From Ulota crispa (Eukaryota; Streptophyta; Bryopsida; Orthotrichales; Orthotrichaceae), in NCBI GenBank assembly GCA_963920765.1, contig OY987251.1:5272501-5336500 (forward strand): a DNA stretch of 64,000 bases, given 5' to 3'. Within the stretch, counting starts at the first letter, position 1; every line of letters starts with the position of its first letter. Position numbers and translations under genes: made by a program. The notes under the pieces were generated by a model, which saw nothing but the letters and a program-made list of their open reading frames with translations, searched no databases and had not been told where the DNA came from. This document shows, piece by piece, positions 2,715 through 60,197 of the stretch.

Positions 2715-3457
2715 TTAACCCCTAAATCCCTGAGTGTCATCTCGGAGGACAAATGAGATTTTGGGCAGGTAGCTATGACTAAACTACTTTGTGTGATATT
2801 TTGAAACTTTTAAGGAAGATAGGGAATTCAAAGATACGTGTGCACATCTAAATTCTTTTTCATCTTGACATTTTTTGAAGAAGTAGAAAATGAATTTCTG
2901 AACTTTTTTGGAGATGGGGCAATTTGGGCAGCCCAATTTGTTTTTTTTTTTAATTTACATTTTTTTGAAATAAAAATCTGAAATTGGTTCTTTGAGTTTA
3001 CATATACGTGGGAAGCTTTGAATCACTTGTTTCCAGTAAATGAAATGAAAGTTATGAGGACTTTTAATGAACTGGTAGATTTGGAGCCATATCTACCAGT
3101 TAACTAAAAGTCCTCATAACTTTCATTTCATTTACTGGAAACAAGTGATTCAAAGCTTCCCACGTATATGTAAACTCAAAGAACCAATTTCAGATTTTTA
3201 TTTCAAAAAATTGTAAATTAGAAAAAAAAACAAATTGGGCTGCCCGAATTGCCCCATCTCTAAAAAAGTTCAGAAATTCATTTTCTACTTCTTCAAAAAA
3301 TGTCAAAATGAAAAAGAATTTAGATGTGCACACGTATTTTTGAATCCCCCATCTTCCATAAAAGTTTCAAAATATCACACAAAGTAGTTTAGTCATAGCT
3401 ACCTGCCCAAAATCTCATTTGTCTCCCGAGGGGACACTTAGGGATTTAGGGGGTTAA
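2715..3457. mobile_element. TTAA element T1: near-perfect long hairpin
   Basis: Flanked by TTAA at 2715-2718 and 3454-3457, with inner ends CCCCTAAATCCCTGAGTG on both sides (one extra G on the right). The whole element is an inverted repeat: about 350 bp of the left half, including GGTAGCTATGACTAAACTAC, returns in the right half as the complement, with a loop of about 20 bases near 3080. Only scattered mismatches separate the arms. The arm sequence is also found as an end module of T10, T15, T16 and T18. It is non-coding. Confidence 0.82.
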
Positions 3458-3794
3458 AAACGCCTGTTTAAACAACTGGTTTTTGGGCCTGTGTGGCCCC
3501 AGCATGAGAAATTAGGACTGGAATAAAAACGGTGTTTGCGTGACCGTGATTGCACACGGTTTTTGTGACCTTTTCCTGCACCTGAGGGCCAGCCATACAT
3601 GACCTTTCCGGCTTCGGACTTCAGGGCATAGGCCACATGCATGCATGCGTGCATGTGCTGTGTTGGGCTGTGCTGACATGGTGAACTCGGACTTGGTGGG
3701 GTTCTCAGAATTGGTTTGCCTGTTGAGATGTTGAAAGGATTGCCCAAGAATGCTCCTTTGTCTGCTTTTCATGCATCCCGCCCTACTTGGCAGG
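3458..3794. other. GC-richer stretch, no recognised gene
   Basis: Noticeably more GC-rich than its surroundings, with a CATGCATGCATGCGTGCATG run at about 3637. Two overlapping minus-strand frames of 86-97 codons exist, but their proteins are low-complexity and unlike any family I know, so I do not call a gene. It may be the remnant of an older insertion. Confidence 0.45.
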
Positions 3795-4560
3795 GTTCTC
3801 TTTCATGGCTAAATTTTGCCTAAATCTTACCTTAGAGCATCTCCACCCTTCCTAGCCATACACTCGAGCCTCAACTGGCTTGCAGGCAAGTATTGGGCCT
3901 TGTCTCAACTAGCTTGCAAATTTGGATCCAAGAGGAGCTCACCAAATGAGGAAATTGGTGGGCCTCACCAAAAATTGCCTCCAAGATATTAAACTCTATT
4001 GTCATCTTCAAATTTCAGGGTGCTTGATTGTCGCTTTTATTCTTGTAAGTTGGTCTTTTTTTGTGAGGTGGTCCATGATTTTTGTGGCAAGTAGCATGGA
4101 TGAATTGGTTTGCTCTTTGTGCGTCTTTAATTGTTGTTTTGAAGCAGAGGAGGTTTTCACAACATCGGATCATGAATCCCACTATCATTCCTTGGCAAGT
4201 GTGGTTGACGAGGAAGGTTGGCTCTCTAACTTGGAACCATTGTCGTCAAGGAAATTAGTGCACTTCAAACCCTCCTTTGTGTGCTCTGTGTGACTAGGAA
4301 AGGTGGAGATGCTCTCAAATTGTCCCTAGTTCCCACTACAATAAAAAAAAATTGGGGGAAAAAGTAGACGACATTGCCAAACCTGTCCTCCAGCAAACAC
4401 ATATTAGCCAAATTCTAGATGAAAGGATTTTATATTAGTGAATTTTATGGATGAACGGGCCCACATTGTTGATTCTATCTAATCTTTATCCAAATTTTCC
4501 TTGTATGCTTGCATTCTTTGGTGCTAGTCCCTCTACCTTGATTATAAAAAAGAAAAAAAA
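3795..4560 (+). repeat. Dispersed repeat family A, copy 2, split by a Harbinger-like element
   Basis: The left part (3795-3834, with TTTTGCCTAAATCTTACC) and the right part (about 4345-4560, with GGATGAACGG and CCAAATTTTCCTTGTATGCT) match contiguous sequence in copies at 19270 and 27985. The Harbinger-like element at 3835-4314 lies between them, so the repeat is older than that insertion. Confidence 0.6.
3835..4314. mobile_element. PIF/Harbinger-like MITE, copy 1
   Basis: Terminal inverted repeats GAGCATCTCCACCCTTCCTA and its complement match at about 20 of 21 positions. The left flank is TTA (3832-3834) and the right flank TCA, consistent with a 3-bp TTA duplication with one change. GAGCATCTCC ends at a TTA target are typical of plant PIF/Harbinger elements. 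A 123-codon plus-strand frame (3922-4293) lies inside but shows no transposase or Myb domain. Confidence 0.75.
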
Positions 4561-5601
4561 CTCTAGGGATTGGTTTACTGCACATATGTATCTGTGGACC
4601 CCAAGGTGGAAAGGCTCTAATTTTTCACATGCCAAATAGTGGAAGAGTTTAGACATTTCTTATATCAAATTTAGGAATTTTGAATCCACATTTAGATTTG
4701 GAGACTTCAGTTCAATATGTAAGTGAGGAGAATATAGCTTAACAATTCCAATACAAAGAGGCAAATCAAGATTTGGGAGGAACTAGCATTTAGTGTACTT
4801 TCAACTGGTAGAAATTGCAAAAAATCAATTGAAATTTGAAACCACTAGAGAAAAAATTGGCCAATTTTTTACAAAAAATAAGTTAAATGTGTATAGATAT
4901 CTATATAATCATGGATTTTTTTAAGGATACAGCCATTGCGTGCATGTTAAAAAACCAAATAAAAATAGAAAATATTATATTTTTAGCAGGTGAAACTAAA
5001 ATCTCTCCCAAACGCCAAGACGGATTTTTACTCTTACCAGACAGATCGTTACTTTTACCATTTATTGCAAAGACAACCTGAGATTTTCTACCATGATCCC
5101 ACAAACACACAACTTATGTGCAATACCCTGAGCACCTCCTCGGGAAGAGGAATTACCAGTGATTTTACTCTGGAATGCTCAGATAATGTCTGAGAAGAAC
5201 TGTCACGTAATAGGAAGTTAGCCAATGAACAAGATCGAATAACTGACCAAATTTCTAGTTTGATTGTTGAAAGCCAGTAACGTGAATTTCAATAAAGATG
5301 GATTATTTCATGAAAAATGGAATCCCATTTGAGGAAAATTGAGTCCACGTTCTGTAAATGTTGTATTATAATTTCTTCAAATATATTAAAGAGAAGTAAG
5401 AAAACACATTATTTACAAAAACATCTATGTTTTTTTCTTTTTATTTTTTTAACAAATTTTGTTGAATCGATTCTTCATGGAATATTTGTTTTCATCAAAT
5501 TTCATGTTAAATGGTACAAAGCGGAGCCATTGGTGTTGAAATAACATTGGGATGTATTTTGGCACCTTGAAAACCACTATTAGTGGATTTCTATCCATGT
5601 A
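4561..5601. other. AT-rich DNA with no recognised gene
   Basis: About 1 kb without recognisable transposon ends. Short frames at 4887-5193 and 5317-5544 have no recognisable domain, and overlapping frames on both strands argue against coding. It ends in the TTAA of element T2. Confidence 0.5.
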
Positions 5602-5828
5602 TTAACCCTTAAATAACCATAGTGCATAGTATATACACTGCAAAGTATTTGCTGCTAGTAAGAAGTTTTGATTTGGGATCTCAAGAAGCTCACTAGAACT
5701 GCTTTGATCTTTTCTCCAACTTCTTTGTTGATCTCAAATGTAGTAAAGGTGTGAATCTATTCCAAATACAAGAAAAATACTCCGTATTGTATTGGTCGCA
5801 GCGGCACTCTTAGACGTTTAGGGGTTAA
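5602..5828 (+). mobile_element. TTAA element T2 (short subfamily)
   Basis: Bounded by TTAA at 5602-5605 and 5825-5828. Inner ends are CCCTTAAATAACC on the left and, read inward from the right, CCCCTAAACGTC. The 227-bp sequence is colinear with T20 at 59841-60074: both share GCATAGTATATAC, TTTGGGATCTCAA and CTCCGTATTGTATTGGTCGC-type blocks. Two full-length copies with the same ends at distant loci establish it as a mobile element. Confidence 0.85.
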
Positions 5829-5889: not shown

Positions 5890-6478
5890 TTAACCCTTAG
5901 GTGGTCTCTAATGAATTTTGCATCTTACTGTTTAAAATGTAGTTTGGATGCAAAAATCTGCATACAAGGTCTGGAAACTCTATTCAATATCATTTGTTTT
6001 ATTGCAGTAATAAGGTTTCCTTTGCACAGCTTGATGAAATTTACATTTTTTTGGACAAATATTGTACAAGTAATAAAAAGTTTTGTGTACGTAAAAAGGC
6101 CCCAAAAAGCATGAAGAGTTGTACAAAGTGAGTTTGGCAACCCCAATTAACAAACCTTCTTGATGGCACATCACATATCCAATCACCAATTTTCAAAACA
6201 TCTGGTCACCATCTCCATTTGCATATACAAATGCAATCTATAGTAGTGTTATGTTTAGTGTGGTATACTCTTGCAACATAAAAAAAGCTCTATTACACAT
6301 TCCCCAATTTCTCCATGTGAAGTTGAATTTTTGTGTTTCACGCATCTGTAATTTCAAACCAAAAGTGCCAACGTTGATGCAATCTACTTCAAACTCCAAC
6401 ATGGATGCAAGCATGATGATCATTGACTTTTACAGATCTCATGGACATGGTATGTCCAGTAATTCATTTAGGGGTTAA
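5890..6478. mobile_element. TTAA element T3
   Basis: TTAA at 5890-5893 followed by CCCTTAGGTGG, and at the other end CATTTAGGGG followed by TTAA at 6475-6478. The 589-bp interior is single-copy in this window. Overlapping short frames on both strands show no known domain. It is assigned to the TTAA group on its ends alone. Confidence 0.6.
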
Positions 6479-6738: not shown

Positions 6739-6950
6739 TTAACCCCTCAACACCCCTGGAATTTTGGAGTATCTCAAAATTTGCTTGAAAGTGAACAAAA
6801 TGCTGGCATTTTGATCAATCTTATCAATTTTCTTTGAAATGTAACCATACAAATTCAAAATAGACATGTTATAGATTGCATACAAACAAAATTCACAACT
6901 ATATCACTTATGGATTGAAAGATTACAATGTTTGATCATGAGGGTGTTAA
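6739..6950. mobile_element. Possible TTAA element T4
   Basis: Starts TTAACCCCTCAACACCCC and ends GATCATGAGGGTGTTAA. The inner ends agree only approximately (CCCCTCA against CACCCTCA), and no second copy is present, so this could be chance. It is adjacent to the palindrome at 7000-7390. Confidence 0.38.
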
Positions 6951-6999
6951 AAATGTGAAAGTGATTTGAAGTCTTTCAATCCTCTTTTTGCCACCCCTC

Positions 7000-7390
7000 T
7001 TTTTGATATTGCCACCCCTCTTTTTGATAATACCACCCCCCCTCTTTTACAACATTGTTCAATTCTTAGTTGTTTTTGGGATATTTGTATTTTTTAAAAT
7101 TTAATATTAAATATGTATCAAGCCAAGTGATTTTTTGTTGGTGATTTTCAAAATGATAAACTACAATCAAATTTTTTGATAAGAAAAGATAACACTCTAT
7201 TATCTTTTCTTATCAAAAAATTTGATTGCAATTTATCAGTTTGAAAAACACCAACAAAAAATAACTTGGTTTTATACATATTTAATATTAAATTTTAAAA
7301 AATACAAATATCCCAAAAACAACTAAGAATTGAAAAATGCTGTAAAAGAGGGAGTGGCAATATCAAAAAGGAGGGTGGCAATATCAAAAA
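7000..7390. repeat. Foldback repeat K, about 390 bp
   Basis: A long inverted repeat: the left arm (TTTTTGATATTGCCACCCCT, then AGTTGTTTTTGGGATATTTG) returns as the complement, ending in GGTGGCAATATCAAAAA. The centre is near 7200 (GATAAGAAAAGATAA and its complement). The termini are built from short direct repeats of TTTTTGATATTGCCACCCC, two or three times per side. Non-coding, probably a MITE. Confidence 0.75.
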
Positions 7391-7763
7391 CCAAACAATA
7401 CTAGTATGTAAAGTATAAAATGCATAACCCCGATGAATTTGCACCTTATTAAAATCTATTCTGCAATTTTTTTAAATGAATTTTTAATGCAACTTTTTCT
7501 CCAAGTTCTAGTGTACTTGAGGCTCATTTCCAAGAGCCTCGTCAACACTAGAAAGTGAAGATTTGCAATGGACACCCTTGCACAAAATCTTGAATAGACA
7601 AATCATGTAAATTCATTTTCAAGATCAGACTCTTGATGCTGAAACTAGACTTCAACAACAATTTAGATATAATAATAACCACACAAAAAATCTTCAAAAA
7701 TCTTTGGTTATCCCTGAACAAAATTTAGAGGGGCGCAATTTCAGTCCCTCGAGCATTGAGGGG

Positions 7764-8678
7764 TTAACCCATAAAGGACCAAGCAACGTTTTCACCAAAA
7801 ACTCTTCAAAATTGTCATTTTTAGAGCATCAATCAAATTTGAAAGAAAAATATTTTTATGCATACACAGCCGTAGGATCTTGTTGTAGGATAATTTGAGA
7901 AGACTTCAAAAAATTCAAAAAAATTCACCATGTGGATTGGAAGATACAATAGTTTGAATATTCAAAAACATCTTGTGAAAACCGAGCAGCTACCCTTCAC
8001 AAGGTGAAATTCTTAAGGAAAAAAACCCGTGTGGGTGGTGCTTCTCTAGGCTACTTATTCTGCCTAAGTAGGATACATGCTAAAAAAATTCAAATCATTT
8101 GGAATTATACAACACATGGGACAAAAATAATAAGTGAAAAGAAGTAGAGAATGATTCAAAACACAAAATTATTGAGAATTTAATTATGGAATTGAAAAAT
8201 GCCAATCCTAATGGTTGTAATGATGTATTAAACAATTTACATCCTTTGGCTTTGTTTTATTTCCAAAATAACAAAAATTGAGTCAAATAAAGGACTTCAA
8301 AGTTTATTTTAGAGTAGAGAATCTAGAATTGCCTACAAACAAAAACTCATAACTCTCATCTCATTGATCAAAATAGAATCATTCAAAGCTTTCTACATTC
8401 ACCTAAATCTCATTAACCATTTTATTTTTTTGATTTTTTGAAAAAAATGATTTTTAAAAATATGCTTGGGCTGCCCGACGAGTGAAAAAAACAATATATT
8501 AGGCCATATCTTCTTATTCATACTTTCAAATGTCATAAAAATTAGTGCATATGAAAAATGAACCTCTTTCCCACATTTTATTAAAATTTCATCCTAGAAT
8601 ATGAAAATCTCTAATCACAAGTACCTGCCCAAAATCGCTATGTTGCTAAGAAAGGGGGCTTTGTCCATGAGGGGTTAA
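7764..8678 (+). mobile_element. TTAA element T5, 0.92-kb subfamily C
   Basis: TTAA at 7764-7767 then CCCATAAAGGACCAAG; the right end reads GTCCATGAGGGG then TTAA at 8675-8678. It is colinear over its length with T13 (28491-29410) and T19 (53373-54292, opposite strand), which are 920 bp each against 915 bp here. Shared blocks include TTTTCACCAAAAACTCTTC and CAAGTACCTGCCCAAAATCG. The sequence just left of it (GCATTGAGGGGTTAA) looks like the end of a further TTAA element whose start I could not place securely. Confidence 0.85.
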
Positions 8679-9133
8679 CTCATTAACGTCTGTGGTCGAT
8701 TTTGGGGGTGGGCAATCCTTTGTATTGCCATTTGAGGCAAGTTTTAAAACTACTGAATATAGATGTCTACCACATATTTGACCGTACAGATGGAACTATT
8801 GAATACAGATGTCTACCATAGATCCGACCGTACAGATGGAAGTATCTTGCAAGGTTTAGTGTTATGCATCATGAATTATGCTCACTCTTTAGTTGTTATG
8901 GTCATCTTTTTGCATTTATTGGTGTATTTTCAATTGGTGCTCTTTTAGTTTTTTCAACCTTCTAGCAACATGCCACCTCATATTGGCGTGGTTATTGTCC
9001 TAAACTCTTCACTTTCCAATTCCCTAAACCTGTCTCCTTTGCCACGTCATCAAATTCCTTGACATGCTCTCTCTACAAACTGAAAAGAGTCAAAATCAAC
9101 CAGGAAATGGTCGACCACACGTTAATGGGTTAA
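8675..9133. mobile_element. TTAA element T6, sharing its left TTAA with T5
   Basis: Left end TTAACTCATTAACGTCTGTG, right end CACACGTTAATGGGTTAA, giving a terminal repeat of about 20 bp that includes GTGGTCGA. Bounded by TTAA at 8675-8678 (shared with T5) and 9130-9133. The ends are a divergent version of the CCCCTAAA signature. A 46-bp internal tandem duplication is listed separately. No coding domain. Confidence 0.7.
8755..8846 (+). repeat. 46-bp tandem duplication inside T6
   Basis: Two adjacent copies of a unit containing AGATGTCTACCA and GACCGTACAGATGGAA, starting at 8755 and 8801 and differing at a few bases. The small frame that reads through it reflects the repeat, not a gene. Confidence 0.8.
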
Positions 9134-9479: not shown

Positions 9480-9810
9480 TTAAAGAGAATTATGGCATGA
9501 CATGTCATTACATCATGAGACATTATATCATGAGCCATTATATTATGAGACACTATATCATTTAACCCATGAAAGGATGTTGGGCTCTGGAGATACAATA
9601 CTAAATACGGTTGCAACCAATATTCAAAAGTTTGAATCAATTGGAAATTAAGTGTTACAACCATACATATTGAAGGGTTGTGTGATGGTGGGTGCATAAA
9701 AAAATTTGGAAAGCCCTCAGAGCAGCTCAAATACGTCTGTACATACGGCTGCAAAGGGCTTTTGTGCTATCCATGGGTTAACATTATATCATGAGATAGA
9801 CACACTAACA
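9480..9810 (+). repeat. Degenerate short tandem repeat interrupted by T7
   Basis: Repeated variants of ACATTATATCATGAG run from about 9500 to 9561 and resume right after T7 at 9782-9800. The TTAA target of T7 lies within this array. The stretch before it (9134-9480) is unclassified AT-rich DNA with repeated CAATGAGTGA motifs and no gene. Confidence 0.65.
9562..9781 (+). mobile_element. TTAA element T7 (subfamily D)
   Basis: TTAA at 9562-9565 then CCCATGAAAGG, and GCTATCCATGGG then TTAA at 9778-9781. The 220-bp interior matches 25985-26217 in the opposite orientation, sharing GGGCTCTGGAG and TGAATCAATTGGAAATTAAG-type blocks. The flanking tandem repeat continues on both sides, which supports insertion into a single TTAA. 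Confidence 0.82.
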
Positions 9811-10580: not shown

Positions 10581-11091
10581 TTAACCCACCAGAGGAAAAA
10601 CATGTCTTAAACAACTAGTTCACAATAATTGGAAATGTTCTAAACAACCATACAAGAACTCAATTATAGTTGTTTAGGATATTTGTAATTGTTGTGAACT
10701 TTTTTTTATAAGACATGTTCTTCTTCTTGTGATATTTGAATGCTAGTGCAGACGTTTTTTGTCCAATGAATGATAAAAATACAGTTTGTTAGAGGTAAGA
10801 AACCGAAACTTAATTTAAATCCATTTATATAAAAAAATCATGAAGACATGATTCATCATGGAAGGCAAAATTAACCTCGCTGAATTAGTCCAAGTTTTTA
10901 AGTATCCCAAAATGTGAAAAGATTCACAAGGACACTATTAGGTTCCATGTTGTCCTCCTTGCAAATTTCATGAGGTCCCCACTACATGCTAGCTTATGCA
11001 ATTTTAAATAACACCATTAAATTTTGAGGGCATTTTTGCCACACTACTATAGAAGACGGCCATAGTGATTGACCCTGCGTTTAAGGGTTAA
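10581..11091 (+). mobile_element. TTAA element T8 (subfamily E) with nested foldback
   Basis: TTAA at 10581-10584 then CCCACCAGAGG; right end GCGTTTAAGGG then TTAA at 11088-11091. From about 10735 to the end it is colinear with T12 (27528-27896), sharing TTTGTCC, AAATTTCATGAGG and a terminal block TGACC-TGC-TTTA. The extra 120-150 bp on the left is a nested foldback. Confidence 0.75.
10603..10723. repeat. Small foldback nested in T8
   Basis: Inverted repeat of about 120 bp: ACATGTCTTAAACAAC and AATTGGAAATGTTCTAAACA on the left return as complements ending in ATAAGACATGT. The corresponding segment is absent from the sister element T12, consistent with a secondary insertion. A related TTGTGAAC...GTTGT block occurs near 16680-16705. 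Confidence 0.6.
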
Positions 11092-11971
11092 GAACTAGTA
11101 GGAACTGACGTCAATAAAATGCTATGCAAAGTTTTGTGACACTAGGGGTTTTTTTACACTAGTGACCATAGCCATTGACCAAGCCAGCCTAAATGATATG
11201 ATTGGAGGAGAAAAGCCTATTGGTCCAATGTTGCTTTACACTAACTGAAAAAAGGGAGTGACCATGGGCAAAAATGAATGAGAAAATGACATGGAATCCT
11301 ACATGTCATAAAGTGGATAATGTTTCATGATCATCTAGATTTTGTGTTGAGACACTCTCAAAAAATTCTTTGGCTGTATTTTTAAAGTGACCAAGCCATC
11401 TCAAATTTTTTAATTGGTCTATTTTTGTCAAGTTTCAATGCTATTTGTTATAAAGAATGCTGTTTACTAATGTTTTACTGTTATGAAAATATTTACTACT
11501 GTATACACAATTTTTGTTGCTGACATGTTGTTTTGCTACAAGAAATGCATCGAGGTTGCAATAATTTCAGTTTTACCGTAGCAACTAAATTTTATTGAAG
11601 TGCTTCTTGTAAGAAGTGATTTATATTCAATATCACGTTTTCTTAACTCTAATTCCATTGTTAAAATACACCAATATTATTATATTGTAAAAATACGTCT
11701 AAACAATAGCATGATCATTTTTTGTAGTTTTCACTTTGTACTGTTGACTGAAGTTTTAATAGTAAAATTTTGTAGTCTTTTTGATTTTAAGTTTCCTCCT
11801 TTATATTTTTACATCCAAATTTTTGAAAATTTATTAAGAAATGAGAAAAAAATTAGGAAGGAGAAAGTAAAAAAAAGAAAATAAAGAAAAGAGTAGAGTA
11901 AATGACCGAATTTTCAAGGAATTGGTCTAAGTGCACTTTACATTATTGAAGGTGACTAATGAATGAAACAA
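11092..11971. other. AT-rich DNA with no recognised gene
   Basis: AT-rich and devoid of a believable coding frame; a 94-codon frame at 11600-11884 is lysine/isoleucine-rich and unlike any family I know. CACTAG-type motifs near 11140-11160 might be transposon ends, but no partner was found. Confidence 0.5.
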
Positions 11972-13041
11972 GGGGAAATATTGAAAATGGGCTTGACAAT
12001 TGGCTGTATTTCAAAAATAGTCTTAACAATTCCAAAATATCAAAAATAGGCCTCATCCGGTCCGGGTCTAGGAAATGTTTGAGTTTTTGCGGTTGATTTT
12101 CTTTGATTCCAAACTGGTTTATCGAGGAACTTTTCCATCATTTTCTCTATTTCATACTATGAATTCAAAAAATAAATAAAGTTTCAATCGGCTTTGTAGC
12201 CAATGTTTACAAATTGCATACGGTTTTGTCATTTCAACCGGCTAGCTTGGAACTAGTTGCTGGTTCTTCCCCAACGTCTCATCATATATAAAAAGTAGGC
12301 CTTGCAACTAAGGCGGCCAAAATTTTGGTGCATGTTTATTTATGGGAATTGATATGAACACACCCAGGGTTTGATATATGCACACAAGGAAAGGCGTAAT
12401 TTGAAAATTTTATCATCAAAAGCTAAATTTGGAAAAATTGAATTCAAATTTGGATATATAGTTGCATTTTTGTGTTAGGAACAAAACAACATCAAGTAGA
12501 TTATGTTGACTTTCACACAATTTTTTCAATTCTTCTTCTAGTGAATCTAGGTCTATAAATCCAAATTTAAATTCAATTTTTCCAAATTTAGCTTCTGATG
12601 ATAAAAATTTCAAATTACCCCTCTCCTTGTGTGCATATATCAAACCCCGGGTGTGTTCATATCAATTCCCATAAATAAACATGCACAAAATTTTGGCCAC
12701 CTTAGTTGCAAGGCCTACTTTTTATATATGATGAGACGTTGGGGAAAAACTAGCGACTAGTTCCAAGCTAGCCGGTTGAAATGACAAAACCATATGCAAT
12801 TTGTAAACATTGGCTACAAAGCCGATTGAAACTTTATTTATTTTTTGAATTCATAGAATGAAATAGAGAAAATAATGGAAAAGTTCCTCAATAAACCAGT
12901 TTGGAATCAAAGAAAATCAACCGCAAAAACTCAAACATTTCCCAGACCCGGACCGGATGAGGCCTATTTTTGATATTTTGGAATTGTCAAGACTATTTTT
13001 GAAATACGGCCAATTGTCAGGCCCATTTTTGATATTTCCCC
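11972..13041. mobile_element. Mutator-type foldback element I, copy 1
   Basis: A 1,070-bp palindrome with arms of about 500 bp. It starts GGGGAAATATTGAAAATGGG and ends with the complement, finishing TGATATTTCCCC. Flanks are ATGAAACAA and ATGAATCAA, a 9-bp duplication with one mismatch, which indicates the Mutator superfamily. The arms share CAAAATATCAAAAATAGGCC and CCTTGCAACTAAGG. It is homologous to 18149-19265. The centre is occupied by an H-related foldback. Non-coding. Confidence 0.85.
12344..12670. repeat. H-related foldback at the centre of element I copy 1
   Basis: Starts GGGAATTGATATGAACACAC and ends with its complement. It is flanked symmetrically by TTTATTTAT and ATAAATAAA of the outer arms. 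Its arms resemble family H (ATCATCAAAAGCTAAATTTG). The same arrangement in copy 2 means the inner piece is part of the transposed unit rather than a recent insertion. Confidence 0.7.
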
Positions 13042-13773
13042 ATGAATCAATTGGTTCTTGATCACCTACACTATTTATGGTATTTAGTGTTATGTTACTA
13101 ATAGTGTTACTTGCATTTTTACTTCACTCACTCTAAATCTCAAGTAGTTTGCATTTCGAGTTGCCTTTTTTTTGTGCACACCACTCTTTGTTGCCTCATC
13201 TCCTTACCCTAAACCCCATGTAGTTTACTCAACCTCTTTGCTTGAAACCCACATTGCACCTCCATCTCCTACTAGCTAGCTTACTTCAATTGCGTCGCTC
13301 CCCTCATGACTTTGCCTTTGTCACATTGCTTTGATTAGAAGGTTGATCTTTGTTACGTCTCCTACACGCTCATTGTTCCACGCTGCTCCATTTGCATGCC
13401 TTGCATTGCTCACATTGTCGGAGAGCCACATTGTTCAATAAGTGATTTTTCTCCTGATTTATTTCAATTTTGGTGTGTTTCTTCCAATTTTCAAGAGTGC
13501 AATACTTTTGTTGAATCAAATGTAGAAGATAAATACAATCCCCAACTTCCATGAGCCCTAACCCTCCTCATGCAATCATTCTGGGAAGATATCCATTGCT
13601 TCTTCACCGGTTACTTATTTCTCAAGCACCTTGCTTTACCAAGAAAAAAGCCTTTGTTTTTTGTTGATGTCGCTTCAATAACTAGGATTTTGGCTACAAA
13701 TACGGGAATTTGTGTTAGGGCCACTTTATGCATGGTTTGGGCCTAGATGGAAGGCTGGCCTGATTTGAAGACC
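13042..13773. other. Unclassified DNA left of T9
   Basis: No gene recognised. The last 60 bases (GTTTGGGCC, GGCCTGATTTGAAGACC) form an approximate inverted repeat with the sequence just right of T9 (14690-14720), so T9 sits at the centre of a small older palindrome. Confidence 0.5.
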
Positions 13774-14689
13774 TTAACCCCTAAAGGACCAAGAAGCCCA
13801 CTTTGGGCTTTATGAGAACTTGGGCAAGCTCTATTGACTTCATAATTTGGAAAATTTTCATGAAATTTTTAGGATGGATGCTTCTCATCATAATCTACAT
13901 GTGAAGCTTCATTTCATGTCATTCCAATAAGTATTGCAAAAGTTAGAAGGTTTTTTCAATTTCAATGTCAAACCGGGCAGCAAAAAATATGTTCTAAATT
14001 TATTTTTTATTTTTTATAGAATTGTGTAGATTGATACCTACTCAAAAAAAATTGAATCACTCAATTCCAAATAATGAGGTAAGAGTTACAAGGAGTTTTC
14101 TTTTGCGGGCAATGAAGGTAGGAAGAGGGTACAAAAAACATATAAAGTTATATTTTACTCTCAATTTTGAAAAACTAGAAATGAAAATGAAAAATGAAGC
14201 TACTAATTGTCTATTAGAGCATTTCTCACCATTGGGATTAACAATTTTCAAATTCTTCAAAACTTATTAGCATACTAGTTATATCTTTCATTCATCAATA
14301 CCTTTGACTTTACAATTTCTGTAAAAATGAATCCAAGTTTTTTTGGTTACATTTTTTTATATATGCTTTCAACCCATTTTCCGACATATTGCCAAAATTG
14401 CACAAGAAATACAACATATGTGTTTTTTTCTAAAAAGTTTGAAAATCAAAACTTCACCTTTTGGAAGGACTAGAAAACAACATTTTGAAGTTTAGGCACA
14501 TTGATCTTGCAATTGGTGGGGATATTCATTCTAAAATTTTGGAAAAATGTACTTGTGCAAGTCAACCAAAGGATCCTACAGCTAGATTTGTTAAAAAATA
14601 AATTTCAATGAAGATTTTGATCCTGATTTGGGGACTAGTATTTTGAAGCATTTTTGGACCTCTAAACACAAAAGAATTTTAGGGGTTAA
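13774..14689 (+). mobile_element. TTAA element T9
   Basis: TTAA at 13774-13777 then CCCCTAAAGGACCAAG; right end GAATTTTAGGGG then TTAA at 14686-14689. The 916-bp length equals subfamily C, and the layout is similar (a CCGGGCAGC block, then TTTTCTTTTGCGGGCAAT, then CATTGGGATTAACAATTTTC), but most of the interior has diverged. Small frames on both strands overlap each other and are not credible genes. Confidence 0.8.
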
Positions 14690-18148: not shown

Positions 18149-19265
18149 GCGAAAATATCGAAAGTAGGCTTCACAATTGCCCGTATTTCGAAAACAGGCC
18201 TCACAATTCAAAAATATCGAAAATAGGCCTCATCCGGGTTTGGGAAATATTTGAGTGTTTCCTTCAATTCTCAAACCATTTTATTAAGGAACTTTTTTCC
18301 GTTATTTTCTCTATAACATACTATAAATACATAAAAATTAGATTTTTCAACCAATTTTTCAGCCAATGTTTACAAATTGCAAACATTTTTTCCTCATTTC
18401 AACTAGCTAGCTTTGAACTAGCTGCGGGTTCTTCTAAGGACTTGGGCCTCATCATGTATCAAAAGTAGGCCTTGCAACTAAGGTGACCAAACATTTGTGC
18501 ATGTTTATTTATGGGAATTGATATGAGCACACCTAGGGTTTGATATATGCACACTAGGGGAGGGAAAATTTTAAATATTTATCATTAAGAAGCTAAATTT
18601 GGAAAATTTGAATTCAAGATTGGATTTAGAAACCTTGATTTAGTCTAGAACCACAATGGAAATTACAATTGAACTACGCCCAATGGAAAAGCTTATTTGG
18701 GGGGCAATTTATTATTTCTAACCTTCTTTGTAAAAAACATTAAGCTTTTCCATTGGGCGTAGTTCAATTATAATTTCCATTGTGGTTCTAGACTAAATCA
18801 AGGTTTTTTTCCAAATTTAGCTTCTTAATGATAAATATTTAAAATTTTCCCCTCCCCTAGTGTGCATATATCAAACCCTAAGTGTGCTCATATCAATCCC
18901 CATAAATAAACATGCACAAATGTTTGGTCACCTTAGTTGCAAGGCCTACTTTTGATACATGATGAGGCCCAAGTCCTTAGAAGAACCTGCAGCTAGTTCA
19001 AAGCTAGCTGGTTGAAATGAGGAAAAAATGTTTGCAATTTGTAAACATTGGCTGAAAAATCGGTTGAAAAATCTAATTTTTATGTATTTATAGTATGTTA
19101 TAGAGAAAATAACGGAAAAAAGTTCCTTGATAAATTGGTTTGGGAATTGAAGGAAACACTCAAATATTTCTCAAACCCGGATGAGGCCTATTTTTGATAT
19201 TTTTGAATTGTGAGGCCTGCTTTTGAAATACGGGCAATTGTGAGGCCCATTTTCAATATTTTCCC
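18149..19265. mobile_element. Mutator-type foldback element I, copy 2
   Basis: A 1,117-bp palindrome homologous to 11972-13041. The flanks are a perfect 9-bp direct repeat, TTTAATTTT, at 18140-18148 and 19266-19274, the Mutator hallmark. The arms include CCTCACAATT, GGCCTCATCCGGGTT and CCTTGCAACTAAGG. The centre is an H-related foldback with TTGAACTACGCCCAATGGAA. Non-coding. Confidence 0.88.

Positions 19266-21748: not shown

Positions 21749-21833
<85 letters not shown>
21749..21833. repeat. Compound (TG)n(TA)n microsatellite
   Basis: About 30 bp of TG repeats followed by about 53 bp of TA repeats, wedged between Helitron copy 2 and foldback H copy 2. Confidence 0.95.
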
Positions 21834-21835
<2 letters not shown>

Positions 21836-22220
21836 GATTGATATGTCTACCACACCCTTTCAGCTATTCTACCACATCCTGGTGTAAATTTTAGATTTCT
21901 ACCATCAAATAGTTGAATATGAGAATTTGGAATTTAGATTTGGATTTAGAAACCATTATTTTGTTTAGAACCTTAAAAAAAAGGTTGTAATTGAACAACA
22001 CCCAATGAAAAAACTTAGCTTGGGGAAAAAGTATTACTTTTACTTTTGTTTATAAAAAAGGATAAACTTTTTCATTGGATATTGTTCAAGTAGAACCCTT
22101 TTATGATTCTAGACAATATCACGATCTCTAAGTTCAAATCTAAATTTCAAATCCTCAAATTCAAATTTTTGATGGGAGAAATCAAAAATTTACCCCAAGG
22201 TGTGGTAGACATAGCAATCC
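21834..22220. mobile_element. Foldback MITE family H, copy 2
   Basis: Begins GGGATTGATATGTCTACCAC and ends GGTAGACATAGCAATCC. Arms match copy 1 (TTCTACCATCAAATAGTTGA, TTGAACAACACCCAATGAAA) with more divergence between the two halves. It is flanked on both sides by TA-rich repeats. Confidence 0.78.
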
Positions 22221-37317: not shown

Positions 37318-38061
37318 GCACAAATAGGGCTCTTGGTTCCAAAGAGGGTCCTAAGTCACATTGTTCAATCTGTAAAATTAAAAAAAAAGAAAAAATTGGT
37401 GAATAACTTAAGAAAATTTGGAAAAAAAAAAAGTTCATAACTTGTAAATGAGGGCTCTTTGGAATCCAAAGAGCCCTTTACAAAACTGTGACAAGCACAT
37501 AAAGGGCTCTTGGGTTCCAAAGAGGGTCCTAAGTCACACCAACCAATCTGTAAAAAAAACAAAAACAAAAAAATTGGTGAAAATCCTAAGAAAAAATTAG
37601 GAAAAAAAAAGTACATATCTTGTTAATGAGGGGTCTTTGGAATCTGAAGAGCCCTTTACAAAACCCGTGACAAGCACAAATAGGGCTCTCGGGTTCCAAA
37701 TAGGGTCTTGCAACACACCAACCAAATTTGTAAAAAGCAAGAAAAAGAATTTAAATGAAAAATAAAATAAACAAATAAATAAAAAGGTGCTTGTTTAGCC
37801 AATGAAAATGGAACTTTGTTCAAAACACAAATTAGTTGAACCCCCATATACCCAATCCAGGTTCCGAGTTGGTCTCTAGAGGCCACTACTCTATTTTGCA
37901 AAACAATAAAGGTTGCTCTGAACGTGCTTGTTTCAAAATGTTTTGTGTTGCAAATGCATATGAAAATCAATATTATTTAAGATTCTATACAATTTACCTT
38001 AGCATGTAATTGTCAAAATAATAATTGTTGAAATAAAACTCTCTTCAAATAATTACTACAA

Positions 38062-38600
38062 TGGTCAAGCTTGGCTTCTTTGACATTTAGTAAATTAAGA
38101 GACTTTAATGTGAACATTATTAACTTAAGGTGTTGTAGAAAGTTATAACATAAACATTAATGGTTAGAACTCTATCTAGGTTCCAAGTTGCCTTTATTAT
38201 GTGGATTCTTTAGCTTGTAAAAAATTAGTTTAGTAGAACTAAGAATCAATCTAACTTGTAATAGAGTTCTAGGATACTATTTTGTTGTTTAGAAATGAGT
38301 TGTAAAATCCACCTAAAGTAAGAAGCTCAAAATTCAATTGAGCATTTCAAATTGTTCATATAGAATTGCCAAAAATAATATAGAGAGTTTTTAAAATGAA
38401 TCATGATTTCTATGGTGCTAAATTGTCATTGCATATGCAAGGTTTTAGAGATTTAAGAAAGTGACAATTAAGGACTATTGTTCATTGGGATAATTGGTCA
38501 TAGTTGTACATAGAGTGAACTAGCATTTTGCATGGTATTAAATTATACTCATATTAGATTGCAAAGGAGCTTTGATTGCATAGTCACATCATAATATCAA

Positions 38601-42972: not shown

Positions 42973-43363
42973 GGAATTGATATGTGTACCACACCCTTCC
43001 AATTACTATACCACACCCCAAGGTAAATGTTAGATTTCTACTATCAAAAAGCTAAATTTGAGAAATTTGAATTCAGATTTGGACGTAGAGACCATGGTAT
43101 TGTCTAGAACCATTAAAAAAGTTGCAGTTCAACAACATCCAATGAAAAAGTTTAGTTAGGGAGAGAATTGTTACTTTTACTTTTGTTTGTAAAAAAAGAT
43201 AAGCTTTTTCATTAGTTGTTGTTGAATTGCAACTTTTTTTATGGTCCTAGATAATATCATGGTCTCTAAGTCCAAATTTGAATTCAAATTTTCAAACTCA
43301 AATTTTTGATGGTAGAAATTTAGAATTTACCCCTGGAGTGTGGTACAGTAGTTCAAAGGGTGT
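42973..43363. mobile_element. Foldback MITE family H, copy 3, right end truncated
   Basis: Begins GGAATTGATATGTGTACCAC, shares TTCTACTATCAAAAAGCTAA and AGTTCAACAACATCCAATGA with copy 1, and folds back around 43180. The right end stops at CAAAGGGTGT before the final ATATCAATTCC. Nested in the CACTA-like element. Confidence 0.78.
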
Positions 43364-44340: not shown

Positions 44341-44510
44341 TTAATTCCTAAAGGACCATTGTTCCTTTGGGAGACAAATGGGATTTTGGGCATGTACCTA
44401 CGACTAAACTACTTATTGTGATTTTTGAATTTTTAATGGAAGATGGGAAATTCAAAAATCTACATGGGCATCTAATTTTTTCTTCATTCCAAGATTTAAT
44501 GAAGTAGTTA
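44341..44510 (+). mobile_element. TTAA element T15, truncated
   Basis: TTAATTCCTAAAGGACCATTG, then GGGATTTTGGGCATGTACCT and GGGCATCTAATTTTTTCTTC, matches the left 170 bp of T16 (46820). No right end was found. It follows a Harbinger-like right end (GGAGATGCTTTTA) at about 44325. Confidence 0.65.
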
Positions 44511-45384
44511 TGCAAGAAATTATTCAAACTATGGTAGGACTGTAGAGGGGCAGTTTGAACATGGCCTCTCATGAGTAAGTGAGTGACTCCAAAAATGGTC
44601 AGTCCTTCCCAGCACAAGGTGTGGATACTTGGGCAAAGGGGAGTGGTGTGGAAGGAGCTCATATTGGGGGACTTCCAACCCTCCATTCCTTTTGCTCCTT
44701 TTAAAATTTGGGACTTTCATTTTTTAAGCGGTTTATGTATTTGTTTTTTAATAAGTTGAGTAAGCCATGATAGAGAATACATCTACTTTTTCAAACAAGA
44801 AGGCTTCTCATTGGTTTAGCACTATAATGCCAGATTGCACAAGTGGGGGAAATTGCAAGTCAACATAGGAAACGCAAGATGTGGCATTTCCTTGGGATGA
44901 ACTCATGCTGGTGTGGTGGAGATTAGCATATCCTTACCTCAAAAGTTTGCTGGCAACCAAGGTTTTTTATTTGGTTTTGTGACCAATGCTTGTGTTTTTT
45001 GCAAATGATTTGTAGCTTGCAAGCACCATTCCTATTTTGGTTGGAGTTGAAGGTGGCCTCTATGCATGGATTTTTTAGCATGATGAGATTCTTTAGTAAG
45101 CTAAAAGTATTCATGTCCTTTTTTTGAAAATTTCCAAACAACCATTGGCATTACTTAATTTTTGCATATTTGCATGGAATTGGATTAGGCAATACCTCAA
45201 ACAAGTTTAAAATGGTGGCATCAATTTTCAATTTGATAATATTTTTATGAAAGCCTAGGCAGCAATGCAATTTTCATTGTTGCAATTTGGCATTTCTTGA
45301 AAATTTCCCCCCTTTTTTCTATAGGTTTGAAGCTCACCTTTTTTTTGGAGGCAATTGGGCCTTAAGTTGCCCAAAAAAAAACAC
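44511..45384. other. Repeat-derived stretch including a Harbinger homologue
   Basis: 44640-44720 is a reverse relative of 25390-25460 and 52385-52430 (CCCTCCATTCCTTTTGCTC). 44745-44935 is homologous to Harbinger copy 3 without T14 and ends near GTGGTGGAGATTAGCA. 45170-45360 is related in reverse to 28260-28490 (ATTTTCAATTTGATAA). No gene. Confidence 0.5.
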
Positions 45385-46397: not shown

Positions 46398-46400
46398 CAA

Positions 46401-46819: not shown

Positions 46820-47545
46820 TTAACCCCTAAAGGACCATTGTTCCTTTGGGGGAGAGATTGGACTTTGGGCATGTACCTATGGCTAAACTACTTTGTGTGA
46901 TTTTTAGAAATTATTATGAAATGTGAAGAATTCAAGGATCTATGTGGGCATCTAATTCTTTCTTCATTCCGACATTTGATGAAGAAGTTATTTATGAATT
47001 TATGAAAATTTGGAGAGGACTGCCCAAATGGGCACCCAAAAACTTCTTTACAATTCACATTTTTTTAAAATTAAAAATTAAAATTGGTTCTTTAGATTAT
47101 TTTATACGTGAGAAGCTTTGAATCATTCAATTTCAATCAATGAGATGAAAGTTATGAGGAGTTTTTGTTTGCGGGCAATTATGGATTCTCTACTTTAAAA
47201 TAAACTTTGAAGTCCTTTACTTTACTCAATTTTCAATATTTTGGAAAAAAATTAAACCAAAGGAAGTAGATTGTTTATAACAACCTTATAACTGCTCGGA
47301 TTTTCATTTTATCATTTTAATATTTAAACTCTTAACAATTTAGTGTTTGGCTCATTCTCTACTTCTTTTTACTTACTATTTTTTCTCATGTGTTGTATAG
47401 TTCCAATTGATTTGAAAATTCTCCCACACACATCTAACTTGATTTCCTACATGGTAAAAATAAAGTGCAACTTCAGGTAGAGCAATTTTTTTGTTATAAG
47501 AGTGGTCAAAGGCTTTTGAAATGTTTGGGTAGCATGGAAAAAAAC

Positions 47546-47579
<34 letters not shown>

Positions 47580-47788
47580 ATTTTTATACTTCAAATGTAA
47601 ATATCTCACTCTTCTCCTTTTGGAATGAGCTAATTTATTTCCCACAAGTACCTCTTCTAATCTGGGGCAAGGTCCTATGGTTGGATTTCCCAAAAACAAA
47701 ACATAAAATCCCTTTTTACTAAACTTCCTAGAAGTGGTAGTTTTTAGTGATTTTCACAGAAAAGAGGGTTTGGTCCTTTAGGGGTTGC
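46820..47788 (+). mobile_element. TTAA element T16 (hybrid of end modules)
   Basis: TTAA at 46820-46823 then CCCCTAAAGGACCATTG; right end GGTTTGGTCCTTTAGGGG followed by TTGC in place of TTAA. The left 200 bp matches the arm of T1 and the ends of T10/T18 (CATGTACCTATGGCTAAACT). The right part matches subfamily C in reverse (CATTCTCTACTTCTTTTTAC). A pure T run of about 25 bases lies at 47546-47570. Confidence 0.8.
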
Positions 47789-49920: not shown

Positions 49921-50884
49921 ATAACGCCTAAACCACAAATATTTGTTCAATAATCAATTGAAAATTTGGGTAGGTTCCTATGAAGTCAAATTTTGGCAAA
50001 TATTTCTGAAATTTGGAAATAAGGTGCACACAATGAACACCTTTTTGTGAAAAAGAAAACTCCAATAAGATGCTCAAGTAAAAAAAATTGCTATTCAAAT
50101 TCTTTTGGGCATCTTAGGTAATTTGGGCATCTTTGAAGAATCTTATGCTAAAACTCTCATCAACTTTTGAAACTTGACATATATGTTACTAATAAAATAT
50201 GGTATACAATTGTCAAAACTAAAATAAAAAATTGAGCTCACAAATCACAATCTAAGAGGAGTCAAACTTTGTTAATTATGTCCGGGTGGTTTCAAGAAAA
50301 AATAGTTTCTTCTAACTTCAAGCCCTATTATCTTGCATTCCATAAATTATAAGTTTTTGAAACTTTTTTCACATATTTTGAATGTTTGCCTCTAACTTTT
50401 GATTGTTCAGATTTTAAACAAAAGACCTCTTCATTGCACAAGAAATCATGAAAAAATGACTAGTGTATTGCTAATTCATTGGACCTCCTTGCATTACAAG
50501 GTGATTTAGAATAAGTTAGATCCTATATTTGCTTCTAGAATTTTTCATGAGTGGACCTAACATCATATACTTGTGAATGGTCAAAAATATTGTTCTTGTG
50601 TAGAGAATTTTATTTTATTTTAGGAGGGCTAGAAGTTTGTTGACTTTGTTTAGCAAGAATGAAAAAATATTGTTTTTCTCAATTCAAACATTATAACTTT
50701 ACAATCGAGGCGGTCAAATGGGATGAATTTTTTTTTCACACATTGCCTTACTTGTATATTACACTTTTGTATGGTTGAAACGCAATAAAAAAAAGTTATT
50801 ATTTTGAATTTTAAATAAATCATCAAAAATTGACAGTTTTGGTCTTATTTTTCTCCGCAACACCCTCCGGGCTTTAGGGGTTAA
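49921..50884 (-). mobile_element. TTAA element T17 (subfamily B)
   Basis: Reverse-orientation copy of T11. The left end here reads ATAACGCCTAAACCAC (TTAA decayed to ATAA) and the right end GGGCTTTAGGGG then TTAA at 50881-50884. Length 964 bp. Identity to T11 is high through ATTGAGCTCACAAATCACAA and TTGGACCTCCTTGCATTACA. Confidence 0.85.
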
Positions 50885-51825: not shown

Positions 51826-52778
51826 TTAACCCCTAAAGGACCAAGCCTTTTTTTATGTGAAAGTCATTGAAATTTGCCATTTTTGGGGAGTGAGTAGAAA
51901 TGTAGGAAAAAAAGTTTTTTGTTTTGAAATCCTACTATAAAATCTTGCCCTAGACTATGGGAGGTACTAGTGGGAAAAAAATCAGCTCATTTTAGAAGTA
52001 GAGGAGTTAGATATTGACATTTGAAGTAAAAAAAAGGTTTTTTCCTTGCTGCCCAAAAATTTCAAAAGCCTTTGACCACTCCTATATCAAAAAAAATGCT
52101 CTTTGCAAAATTGAGGTTTATTTTTTCCATGTAGAAGACCAAGTTAGGTAAGTGTAGGAGAAATTTCAAATGAATTAGAGGTGTGAATTATACTTTGTAA
52201 AATCCTCCAATGTTGTAAGGCCATGAAATTTGCGTATACACGAGGCAAAATTGGAGGATTTACAAAAAACTTAGAAATCTGAATTGCTTTGATCCAAATG
52301 GTGAAAATCAAGGAATCTTATTCTATTACAACTTGGGAAAAAAGTGAATAAAAAAACTAATACACAAAGAGCTCAAAACAATAAAGCACCAAATTTTACA
52401 AGGGGCAAAAAGAATGGAGGTTTGGGAGTCCCATACCTACCAGCAAACTAAAACTTCTCACTCATCAATCGAAATTGAATGATTCAAAGCTTCCCACATA
52501 TATACAAATCTAAAGAACAAATTTTAGATTTTTATTTTTTTTAAATGCAAATTTTAAAGAAGTTTTTGGATTGCCCACCCTCCCCTATTTTCCAAAAATT
52601 CATGCATAACTTCTTCAATAAATGTTGGAATGAAGAAAAAATTAGATGCCCACATAGATCTTAGAATTCCCCTTCTACCATAAAGGTTTCAAAAAATCAT
52701 ACAAAGTAGTTTAGCCATAGATACATGCCCAAAATCCCAAATGTCCTCTAAGGGGACAATTGGTCCTTTCTAAGTTAA
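51826..52778 (+). mobile_element. TTAA element T18 (c-type left end, a-type right end)
   Basis: TTAA at 51826-51829 then CCCCTAAAGGACCAAG; right end GGACAATTGGTCCTTTCTAAG then TTAA at 52775-52778. It is colinear with T10 minus its nested element. The right 200 bp matches the arm of T1 (CAAAGTAGTTTAGCCATAGA, ACATGCCCAAAATCCC). Confidence 0.83.
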
Positions 52779-53372: not shown

Positions 53373-54292
53373 TTAACCCTTAAAGGACCAAACCCCCTTT
53401 TTTAGCAACATAGCAATTTTGGGTAGGTACTTGTGATTAGCGCTTTTCATATTTTAGGTTGAAAATATAATAGAATGTGGGAACGAGGTTCATCTTTCAT
53501 ATGCACTAAATTTCATGACATTTGGAATTATGAGTAAAAATCTATGGCCTAATATGTTGTTTTTTTCACTTTGCGGGCAACTTGGGCAGATTTTTAAAAA
53601 TCGCTTTTTTCAAAAACAAATATTTTCAATTGGTTTAGGAGATTTATGTGAATGTAGGAAGCTTTGGACCATTCCGTTTTGATCAACGAGATGAAAGCTA
53701 TGAGGATTTTTAGTTTGCGAGCAGTTATGGATTCTCTACTCTAAAATAAACTTTGAAGTCCTTTCTTTTACTCAATTTTCATTATTTTGGAAAAAAAAAA
53801 ACCAAAGGATGTAGATTTTTTATTACAACATTATGACCATTGGGATTGGCATTTTTCATTTCCATAATGAAATTCTTAACAATTTTGTGTTTTGAATCAT
53901 TCTCTACTTCTTTTTACTTACTAATTTTTTTCCATATGTTATACAATTCCAAATGATTTGAAACTTTTTTGACATGTACTTTACTTAGGTGGAATAAGTA
54001 ATTTAGAGAAGCACCACCCACACGGCCTTTTTTCCTTAGGAATTTCACCTTCTGAAGGGTAGCTGCCCGATTTTTCACAAGTCGTTTTAGAATATTCAAA
54101 CCATTCTAACTTCCAATCCATGCGATTAAAAAATTTTGAATTTTTTTCCACATCATCTAAAACCATTCTTCTACAAGATCCTATGGTCACATATGAATAA
54201 AAATGTTTTTTTTTCAAATTTGGTTAATGCTTTAAAAATGGCAGTTTTGGAGAGTTTTTGGTGAAAACTTTGCTTGGTCCTTTAGGGGTTAA
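53373..54292 (-). mobile_element. TTAA element T19, 0.92-kb subfamily C
   Basis: TTAA at 53373-53376 then CCCTTAAAGGACCAAAC; right end TTGGTCCTTTAGGGG then TTAA at 54289-54292. It has intact TTAA on both sides and is 920 bp, the reverse complement of T5 and T13. Frames at 53914-54217 overlap on the same strand and are not genes. Confidence 0.88.
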
Positions 54293-58324: not shown

Positions 58325-59760
58325 GCCTTGCAACAATGTATAGTGCCCTCCAACAAGTCCTTGTTACACCATGTTTTGCCATTCAAAGAACTTTGCTAAT
58401 ACAGAAAGTAATTGATATTTTGTTGTTTTAAATCATAGAAATCTGATTCTTATGCAATCCCAATCAAGCATACCAAATTTTGTTTCCTTGAAACCAAAAC
58501 CCCATTTCTGATGAATTATTTTGTATTAAACTCATGGTTTTACATAATAATTGATAAAAAAATATTGGTGATGATTTTTTTGAGATTTGATTGCATGAGT
58601 GTGTAGGAAACATCCATACACACACCTTTTATGCTAAAAAAACCCCCTTTAAGTAACAAAAAAATGTTTTACAAAGGTTTCAATGTGACATGTGATATGC
58701 CCAAGTTTTGTAAAATAAATATTTTGGTTTTTTAACTAACTTTTCACCAAATAAACATAACATCATGTTCAAAGGTACAAACTTAGTCACAATGTATAAA
58801 CCAAATAGCAAAATTATTATATTATGTATTAGCAAAATTCTTTGAATGACAAAATAGGGTGTTTGAGGGCTTGTTGGAGGACAGTGTATAGTACCCTCAA
58901 GAAAGTCTACGTACCACCCTTTTTTGACATCCAAAGAAGTATGTATAACAAAGAACATAACTAGCATTTCATTCTCACATTGTTATTATGCAGTCCTCAT
59001 GCAATCTTGATCAAGCATACCAAAGTTTAGTGACTAAAACCCAAAATCCTATTTTTGGTAAATAGTTTTGCGTCAAAATCATGGTTTTACAAGAAAATTG
59101 ATCAAAAAACATTGGTGGTGAATTTTTGTGATTTGATTGCATGGATTTGTAGGAGACATCAAACGCACATCTTTCTTTCAAACAAACATTTTCAGAAGAT
59201 TCAAAACTCCTTCTATGGAGTTTTTAATGTTAGGGTGATCATGACCAAATTTAGTAAAATACATATTTCTTCATGAAACTTAGTTTTTGAGAGACATATC
59301 ATCATGTTTAAAGGTACAAACTTAATCACAAATGTATGAGTCAAATAACAAAAACTAATTTTCATGAAGAAATATGTATTTTACTAAATTTGGTCGTTAT
59401 CACCCTAACATGAAAATCTCTATAGAAGGAATTTTGAACTTTTTAAAATGTTCGTTTGAAAGAAAGATGTGCGTTTGATGTCTCCTACATGTCCATGCAA
59501 TCAAATCTCAAAAATTCATCACCAATATTTTTTGATCTACTTTCTTGTAAAACCATGATTTTGACGCAAAACTATTTACTAAAAATAGGATTTTGGTTTT
59601 TAGTCACTGAACTTGGGCATGCTTGATCAAGATTGCATGAGGATTGCATACTAGCAATGCGAGAATGAAATGTCAGTTATATTCCTTGTTATACATATTT
59701 CTTTGGATGCCATAAAAGAGTGGTACGTAGACTTTCTTGAGGGTACTGTATTGTACAACA
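58325..59760. repeat. Cluster of two M-type palindromes
   Basis: A degraded palindrome at about 58325-58895 (AGTGCCCTCCAACAAG against CTTGTTGGAGGACAGTG) is followed by a better one at about 58890-59760, whose arms share AGAAAGTCTACGTACCACCC, CAAGCATACCAAAGTTTAGT and TTTGCGTCAAAATCATGG. Both are homologous to palindrome M1 (TTGATTGCATGGATTTGTAG and similar). Mirror-image short frames are not genes. Confidence 0.75.
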
Positions 59761-59774
59761 AGCAATATACATTT

Positions 59775-60197
59775 GAGAGGGTGCACCATTTAGAGCCCTA
59801 TGGCCTTTCCACTTGAAAATAAAGCTCCAAAAAATATGAATTAACCCTTAAACGTCCACAGGGCATAGTATATACGCTGACATATAATTGTCATTTGTTA
59901 CCAATCAGAAATTTTAATTTGGGATCTCAAGTAGCTCACTAAAACCGCATTGATCTATTCTCCAACTTTTTTGTTGATCTCAAATGTAGTAGAGGTGTGA
60001 ATCCATTCCAAACACAAGAAAAATACCCCGTATTGTATTGGTCGCAACGGCACGCTAGAACGTTTAGGGGTTAACTCGGGTTAGATGCCAATTCCTCTTG
60101 CCTTTCAAAGAAAATTTACTGAAAAACATTTCAAGAAGTGTCACCTCCGCAAAATTCAGTTTCAGCCCTTAGATGCTCCATTCATGAGCCTCCTACC
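59775..60197 (-). mobile_element. MITE family N, copy 3, split by T20
   Basis: Minus-strand copy: AGAGCCCTATGGCCTTTCCA at the left, TTCCTCTTGCCTTTCAAAGA and GAGCCTCCTACC at the right. The left end is truncated. T20 (59841-60074) interrupts it between ATATGAA and CTCGGGTTAGATGCC, positions that are adjacent in copies 1 and 2. Confidence 0.8.
59841..60074 (+). mobile_element. TTAA element T20 with empty-site evidence
   Basis: TTAA at 59841-59844 then CCCTTAAACGTCC; right end GAACGTTTAGGGG then TTAA at 60071-60074. Full-length partner of T2. The host MITE copies without it read ATGAAACAACTTGGG (copy 2, complement) where this locus reads ATGAATTAA [element] TTAACTCGGG, so the insertion duplicated just four bases. 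Confidence 0.9.

Follow-up and report, generated by a model that had tools for sequence, protein, structure and literature searches.

The stretch analysed here (hereafter the window) comprises 64,000 nucleotides of contig OY987251.1 of the Ulota crispa assembly GCA_963920765.1 (positions 5,272,501 to 5,336,500, forward strand) and contains repeated elements that begin with TTAA and a CCC-starting end and close with the complementary end. A first-pass annotation of the window had listed 20 such starts and proposed a group of miniature inverted-repeat transposable elements (MITEs) related to piggyBac. Pairing by hand from end lists supplied an opposite end for 16 of these 20 starts and added one element, at 6739-7767, that the annotation had missed; the 17 hand-paired elements amount to 12,421 bp (19.4% of the window). 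Ends for the starts at 25985 and 28491 (i.e. ~26196 and ~29404) were placed from homology to other copies only, and the starts at 27528 and 44341 were without a clear partner end. TTAA was present at 18 of the listed starts, as described, with ATAA at the other two (i.e. 26573 and 49921).

Family A is represented by elements at 24604-25883 (1280 bp) and 51826-52778 (953 bp), which are 73-78% identical in blocks, by a copy with a family C-like middle at 46820-47788, whose right flank is mutated (GTTGC, not GTTAA), and by a partial end (TTAATTCCTAAAGGACC) at 44341-44542 with 79.8% identity over 203 bp to 46820-47022. The 743-bp element at 2715-3457 is almost wholly palindromic, with two 372-bp arms that repeat a family A end in opposite orientations. 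Family B consists of 26573-27531 (959 bp) and 49921-50884 (964 bp), which follow ATAA on the left and are 91.4% identical, with a further copy outside the window (L044, 1017-1942). Family C comprises 7764-8678 (915 bp; 83% identical to 53373-54292), 28491-29404 (90.8% identical to 53381-54292) and 53373-54292 itself (920 bp). The family D elements at 5602-5828 (227 bp) and 59841-60074 (234 bp) are 84.6% identical over 234 bp, and those of family E at 9562-9781 (220 bp) and 25985-26196 are 80% identical. Single elements were found at 5890-6478 (589 bp; without relatives elsewhere in the window), 6739-7767 (1029 bp), 8675-9133 (459 bp), 10581-11091 (511 bp), 13774-14689 (916 bp; begins with an exact copy of the 20-base end TTAACCCCTAAAGGACCAAG) and 32940-33480 (541 bp). 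A possible element at 27528-27892, whose right end has no clear TTAA, partially resembles 10581-11091 (71.5% over 144 bp). Neighbouring elements share single TTAAs in the chain 6739-7767, 7764-8678 and 8675-9133, and 26573-27531 is joined in the same way to 27528. Rfam and tRNA scans of the window gave no match, nor did a Pfam search with two window open reading frames or a comparison of 13774-14684 with phage records.

The ends of these families were represented by a 20-base weighted profile (form TTAA-CCCYTAAA...GNCCAAG) built from 67 ends, the window's own included. With this profile, 28 ends in the window scored ≥18 and 18 scored ≥20, as compared to 1, 2, 1, 1 and 1 ends at ≥18 and none at ≥20 in five first-order Markov simulations, and 3 and 0 ends, respectively, in the reversed window. 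Because the training ends include those of the window, the independent test lies in genome-wide counts, made over 274.8 Mb in 157 contigs (C1-C10, of 15.8-41.4 Mb each, account for 264.8 Mb; C11 is at least 6 Mb long). The 12-mer TTAACCCCTAAA occurred in 15,477 + 15,495 exact copies (30,972) versus 41 + 36 (77) for the reversed pattern, and the 20-base end TTAACCCCTAAAGGACCAAG in 1,532 + 1,506 exact copies (3,038) versus 0 + 0 for its control. The 13 exact copies of the 12-mer in the window correspond to a density ~1.8-fold that of the genome average; assuming that exact 12-mers form the same share of ends everywhere as in the window (13 of 28), a rough estimate for the genome would be ~67,000 ends. 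Inverted repeats extending beyond the terminal bases were examined with an automatic 120-bp test, which was passed only by 2715-3457 and one cross-pair of two related elements; in the other elements, the opposite ends are not long inverted repeats. Both the window profile and the genome-wide counts exceed their controls and confirm the repeated TTAA-flanked elements of the annotation; its common, CCC-starting ends with several unrelated interiors are likewise supported.

A TTAA target was examined using the 16-base end CCCCTAAAGGACCAAG, for which TTAA stood directly before 3,038 of 3,614 exact genomic copies (84%). Eleven of 12 inspected family A copies also started after TTAA; the twelfth (L059, ~1500 and 2460) was flanked by CTAG on both sides, as would be expected were the four bases duplicated target sequence rather than element sequence. 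CTAG was rejected as a common second target since it directly preceded only 16 of the 3,614 exact ends. CTAG-CCCCTAAAGGACCAAG was also seen at both ends, in opposed orientation, of C5:22273593-22274117. Unoccupied sites were sought by fusing the flanks of candidate elements around one TTAA and searching the window and the fetched loci. Four of the 46 candidate end pairs yielded matches across the joined junction, giving six such matches altogether; the 46 pairs were every combination of opposed ends within 6 kb and, as many of these combinations are not real elements, the 42 unmatched pairs do not count as failures. The clearest case was a transposase-bearing element (L046, 2301-7608), whose unoccupied site lies inside the 32940 element at window positions 33238-33381 (87.2% identity over 148 bp) with the junction TTTAA intact; the left flank of this element is itself repetitive (1,380 candidates at first look). 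Joined flanks of the 32940 element matched window 44748-44865 and L044 8221-8395 across the junction, related unoccupied sites for 59841-60074 were found at 31923-32116 and 30124-30286, and the joined flanks of the 2715 element matched window 2388-2269, the other arm of a flanking foldback, in an alignment that is gapped where the flanks meet. For the joined flanks of a second transposase-bearing element (L052), 26 matches were scored: two were contiguous across the junction (C3:17335126-17335324 and C9:10799187-10799382, alignment positions only), one crossed it with ~40 bases missing, two were the element's own flanks and the rest were one-sided. The proposed TTAA target duplication is supported by the 84% of exact 16-base ends and by these unoccupied sites.

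The genome was searched for transposase genes using the piggyBac DDE profile PF13843, with 116 of 528 candidates scored. At least 120 stretches were over the curated cut-off, all on C1-C11 (best E 1.3e-73), and none of 14 control genomes responded. When 1.5 kb was taken on either side of the first 30 transposase loci, a search for ends yielded only three weak 6-mismatch matches, in two of the 30 loci; this search was poor because the flanks were too short, as was revealed by wider flanks for 10 loci (L043-L052). Four copies were bounded at both ends, namely L043 1463-6489 (5,027 bp), L045 1396-6497 (5,102 bp), L046 2301-7608 (5,308 bp) and L052 1267-7012 (5,746 bp), with agreement at 12, 12, 13 and 15, respectively, of the terminal 16 bases. 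In L052, TTAA and near-identical CCCCTAAATGCCTAA ends, which are short terminal inverted repeats of the CC[C/T]T type (TTAACCCCTAAATGCCTAAG / TTAACCCCTAAATGCCTAAA), enclose the piggyBac DDE domain. The first-pass annotation had named a long element that combines such ends with a transposase gene as support for its proposal; L052 is an element of this kind, with L043, L045 and L046 as further bracketed copies, and the source indicated by the PF13843 domain inside TTAA-CCC ends is piggyBac.

Three long frames are present on the minus strand of L052: 5299-6591 (no Pfam match), 3914-5020 (DDE domain, E 2.6e-59) and 3446-3913, which contains the end of the DDE domain (3.7e-7) and a cysteine/histidine (Cys/His) cluster. 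Compared to PDB at E≤0.001, the DDE frame matched only piggyBat (1.7e-16) and piggyBac (3e-13). Among the positions that we take to be the three catalytic aspartates (Asp), the first two columns (L052 D191 and D278) were invariant in all seven aligned copies, and the third motif, GVDxxDQ, was found in the second L052 frame, L019, L044 and L045, with GVNVGDQ in L047. A Cys-rich C-terminal domain was visible by eye as a Cys/His cluster in L052 and L044; a simple pattern matched two of 30 loci and no separate Pfam match was obtained at E≤0.01. Piggybac-type stretches without stops at C1:1180709-1181995 (563-aa frame) and C8:19570986-19572215 (472-aa frame) may represent intact copies, or else host genes derived from a transposase. 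Same-contig transposase pairs in opposite orientation with equal or near-equal scores, perhaps representing inverted segmental duplications, were observed at C2:36764772-36766318 and C2:36779360-36780906, at C7:18203169 and 18223004, and at C10:676128 and 785346. In viral contigs, 33 pattern matches to transposase relatives were obtained and none was confirmed.

The transposase-bearing elements were linked to the window through family A. The end beyond the gene aligned with the first part of the family A element at 51826 in L048 (74.5% over 542 bp), L049 (76.9% over 528 bp), L050 (76.0% over 362 bp) and L051 (72.3% over 611 bp), and L044 matched family A in two shorter blocks. In all four of L048-L051 the matching terminus lies 1,633-1,765 bp past the DDE match, and this similar distance identifies it as a terminus of the elements themselves rather than a sequence that adjoins them by chance. 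As the aligned terminal sequence extends over 362-611 bp, family A is assigned a piggyBac derivation from these alignments. The remaining families (B-E) and the single elements would have been mobilised by the same enzymes.

The host was identified from conserved plant genes. LEAFY gave two exon matches, and a 105-residue exon was identical at 103 of 105 positions to PDB 4bhk (E 7.5e-72), which we take to be LEAFY of the moss Physcomitrium patens, with a weaker match (E 2.6e-49) to 2vy1, presumably the Arabidopsis protein. NAC genes produced 25 exon matches representing ~13 genes; flowering plants have far more numerous NAC genes. A moss host is well supported by the near-identity of the LEAFY exon to 4bhk, and the NAC set also points there; a flowering-plant host is not supported.

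Ends, TTAA flanks, unoccupied sites, transposase genes inside TTAA-CCC ends and terminal sequence common to family A and transposase-bearing copies were all observed, and the elements of the window are almost certainly non-autonomous transposons of the piggyBac superfamily in moss; membership of this superfamily is assigned from the features tested. Transposase-bearing elements of ~5.0-5.7 kb carry one piggyBac-type DDD transposase gene between short terminal repeats (CCCYTNANNGNCCAAG) adjoining TTAA. The transposase would bind the ends, excise the element and reinsert it at another TTAA, duplicating these four bases in a presumed cut-and-paste process. Copies that retained the ends, with interiors deleted or refilled, may have been moved in trans by several related transposases, giving rise to tens of thousands of ends.

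Several observations weigh against this interpretation. None of the PF13843 matches listed (116 of 528 candidates scored) falls in the window, and stops interrupt 110 of the 120 listed stretches, with some of the 10 stretches without a stop being partial. Under a strict motif definition, the third Asp motif was recovered from 14 of 30 loci and the complete set of three from four of these 30, in line with widespread damage. Of the 10 loci with wide flanks, six (L044 and L047-L051) had a recognisable end on one side only, beyond the gene, and the right ends of the 12 inspected copies of family A were often degenerate. Families B, C, D and E, like the single elements, have nothing beyond terminal bases in common with the transposase copies examined. 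Lastly, the unoccupied sites of the 32940 and 59841 elements read TTTA, TTGA, ACAA or ATAA and not TTAA, and hence give the length of the duplication but not its sequence.

Mobilisation of all families by a single transposase lineage, as implied by the first-pass proposal that one transposase had moved many different sequences, is improbable. All families have ~8-12 terminal bases in common, as such a lineage would predict, but the 30 transposase loci compared fell into 13 DNA-level groups (eight multi-copy groups and five singletons) and the ends of transposase groups differ (TTAACCCCTCATCGCC, TTAACCCTTGACCGCC, TTAACCCCTTGAGGAC, TTAACCCCTAAATGCC). The single-enzyme part of that proposal is too simple in view of these 13 groups; its piggyBac source is supported. 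That the elements belong to Kolobok or Sola3, with piggyBac genes present in the genome but unrelated to them, is very unlikely: TTAA alone does not separate these superfamilies, and the transposase profile searched was that of piggyBac, but L052 has its piggyBac gene between matched TTAA-CCCCTAAA ends, four of four loci (L048-L051) have their terminal sequence in common with family A, and TTAA plus CC[C/T]T ends are given as piggyBac hallmarks (PMC2872659). An origin of the ends from arrays of the plant telomere unit CCCTAAA, which is contained in CCCCTAAA, or from other simple repeats is scarcely credible, being refuted by the unoccupied sites and at odds with a signal that spans 20 bases (TTAACCCCTAAAGGACCAAG) and with the arrangement of ends in opposed pairs.

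The age of the elements was assessed from sequence identities. Among the best 40 of 5,904 first-look candidates for a 605-bp family A query, which were scored, the 39 besides the window's own copy were 85-87% identical to it. Mean identities among the 12 inspected family A copies were 84-87%, the closest relatives of two transposase genes were 81% identical and the best pair among the 30 transposase loci reached 90%. Most activity looks old, and is probably past.

The moss elements resemble Trichoplusia ni (T. ni) piggyBac and bat piggyBat in having a DDE domain of the PF13843 type with its catalytic Asp positions conserved, a TTAA target, short CCC ends and, judging by eye, a possible Cys/His-rich tail, and differ from both in their host. 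The four both-end-bounded copies (5.0-5.7 kb) exceed the classic piggyBac of 2,472 bp (PMC10813416) and beetle copies of 2,074-3,465 bp (PMC12732532), whilst small animal genomes are reported to contain piggyBac elements as long as 9.51 kb (PMC10813416). Coral CMITEs, which are piggyBac-derived MITEs, similarly have TTAA flanks, CC[C/T]T ends and one family tied terminally to a transposase-bearing element, but are ~100 bp in length, in contrast to the 0.2-1.3 kb, several unrelated interiors and one 743-bp palindrome of the moss elements (PMC2872659). Angiosperm MITEs that also bear the name PiggyBac were grouped by their ends and target duplication (PMC10004981), features used here too, whereas in the moss a transposase lies inside the same kind of ends.

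Published accounts place piggyBac widely among animals, fungi and protists and only occasionally in plants, e.g. red algae (PMC12732532), and state that it has also been isolated from plants (PMC10813416). PiggyBac is listed among angiosperm MITE superfamilies (PMC10004981) and plant class II superfamilies (PMC10794571), and a fern repeat table contains 1,230 PiggyBac copies (122 kb; PMC6890710). A review of land-plant transposable elements gives six terminal inverted repeat superfamilies in plants, and the search listing indicated no occurrence of 'piggybac' in it (PMC9033089). No transposase-bearing plant element was seen in the passages of PMC10794571, PMC10004981 and PMC10813416. One moss paper matched a piggyBac search, one of its two occurrences being 'piggybacking', and no report of a transposase-bearing piggyBac or of such amplification in moss was found among the papers listed in the searched literature, which excludes most subscription papers as well as Repbase and Dfam. 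The superfamily is a known one, and its massive amplification in a land-plant group is without a report found in that literature.

A moss genome with ~31,000 exact piggyBac-type ends of 12 bases, together with 120 or more transposase stretches, would establish that piggyBac can be hosted on a large scale by land plants and offers a native plant system for study; repeat annotations of other moss genomes are worth checking for piggyBac. A broader and tentative suggestion is that piggyBac has long been resident in mosses and has diversified greatly there, that its derivatives make up a leading share of non-coding repeats, and that the few unbroken stretches are maybe active elements or transposase-derived host genes. 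If true, no land-plant group before mosses would have been shown to have a genome driven by piggyBac.

Other repeats were also observed in the window. A separate long foldback family with ends like GGAATTGATATGTGTACCACACCC and without TTAA-CCC ends is present at 2301-2713, 21830-22207 and 42973-43363, with copies also in L004, L048, L049, L051 and L052. More long inverted-repeat elements lie at 11964-13049, 18151-19263, 30640-31396, 58887-59750 and 35332-38068, with arms of 319-738 bp that are 90-99% complementary. The last of these, with outer arms 99% complementary, contains the run of 200 N in the window (~36590-36790).

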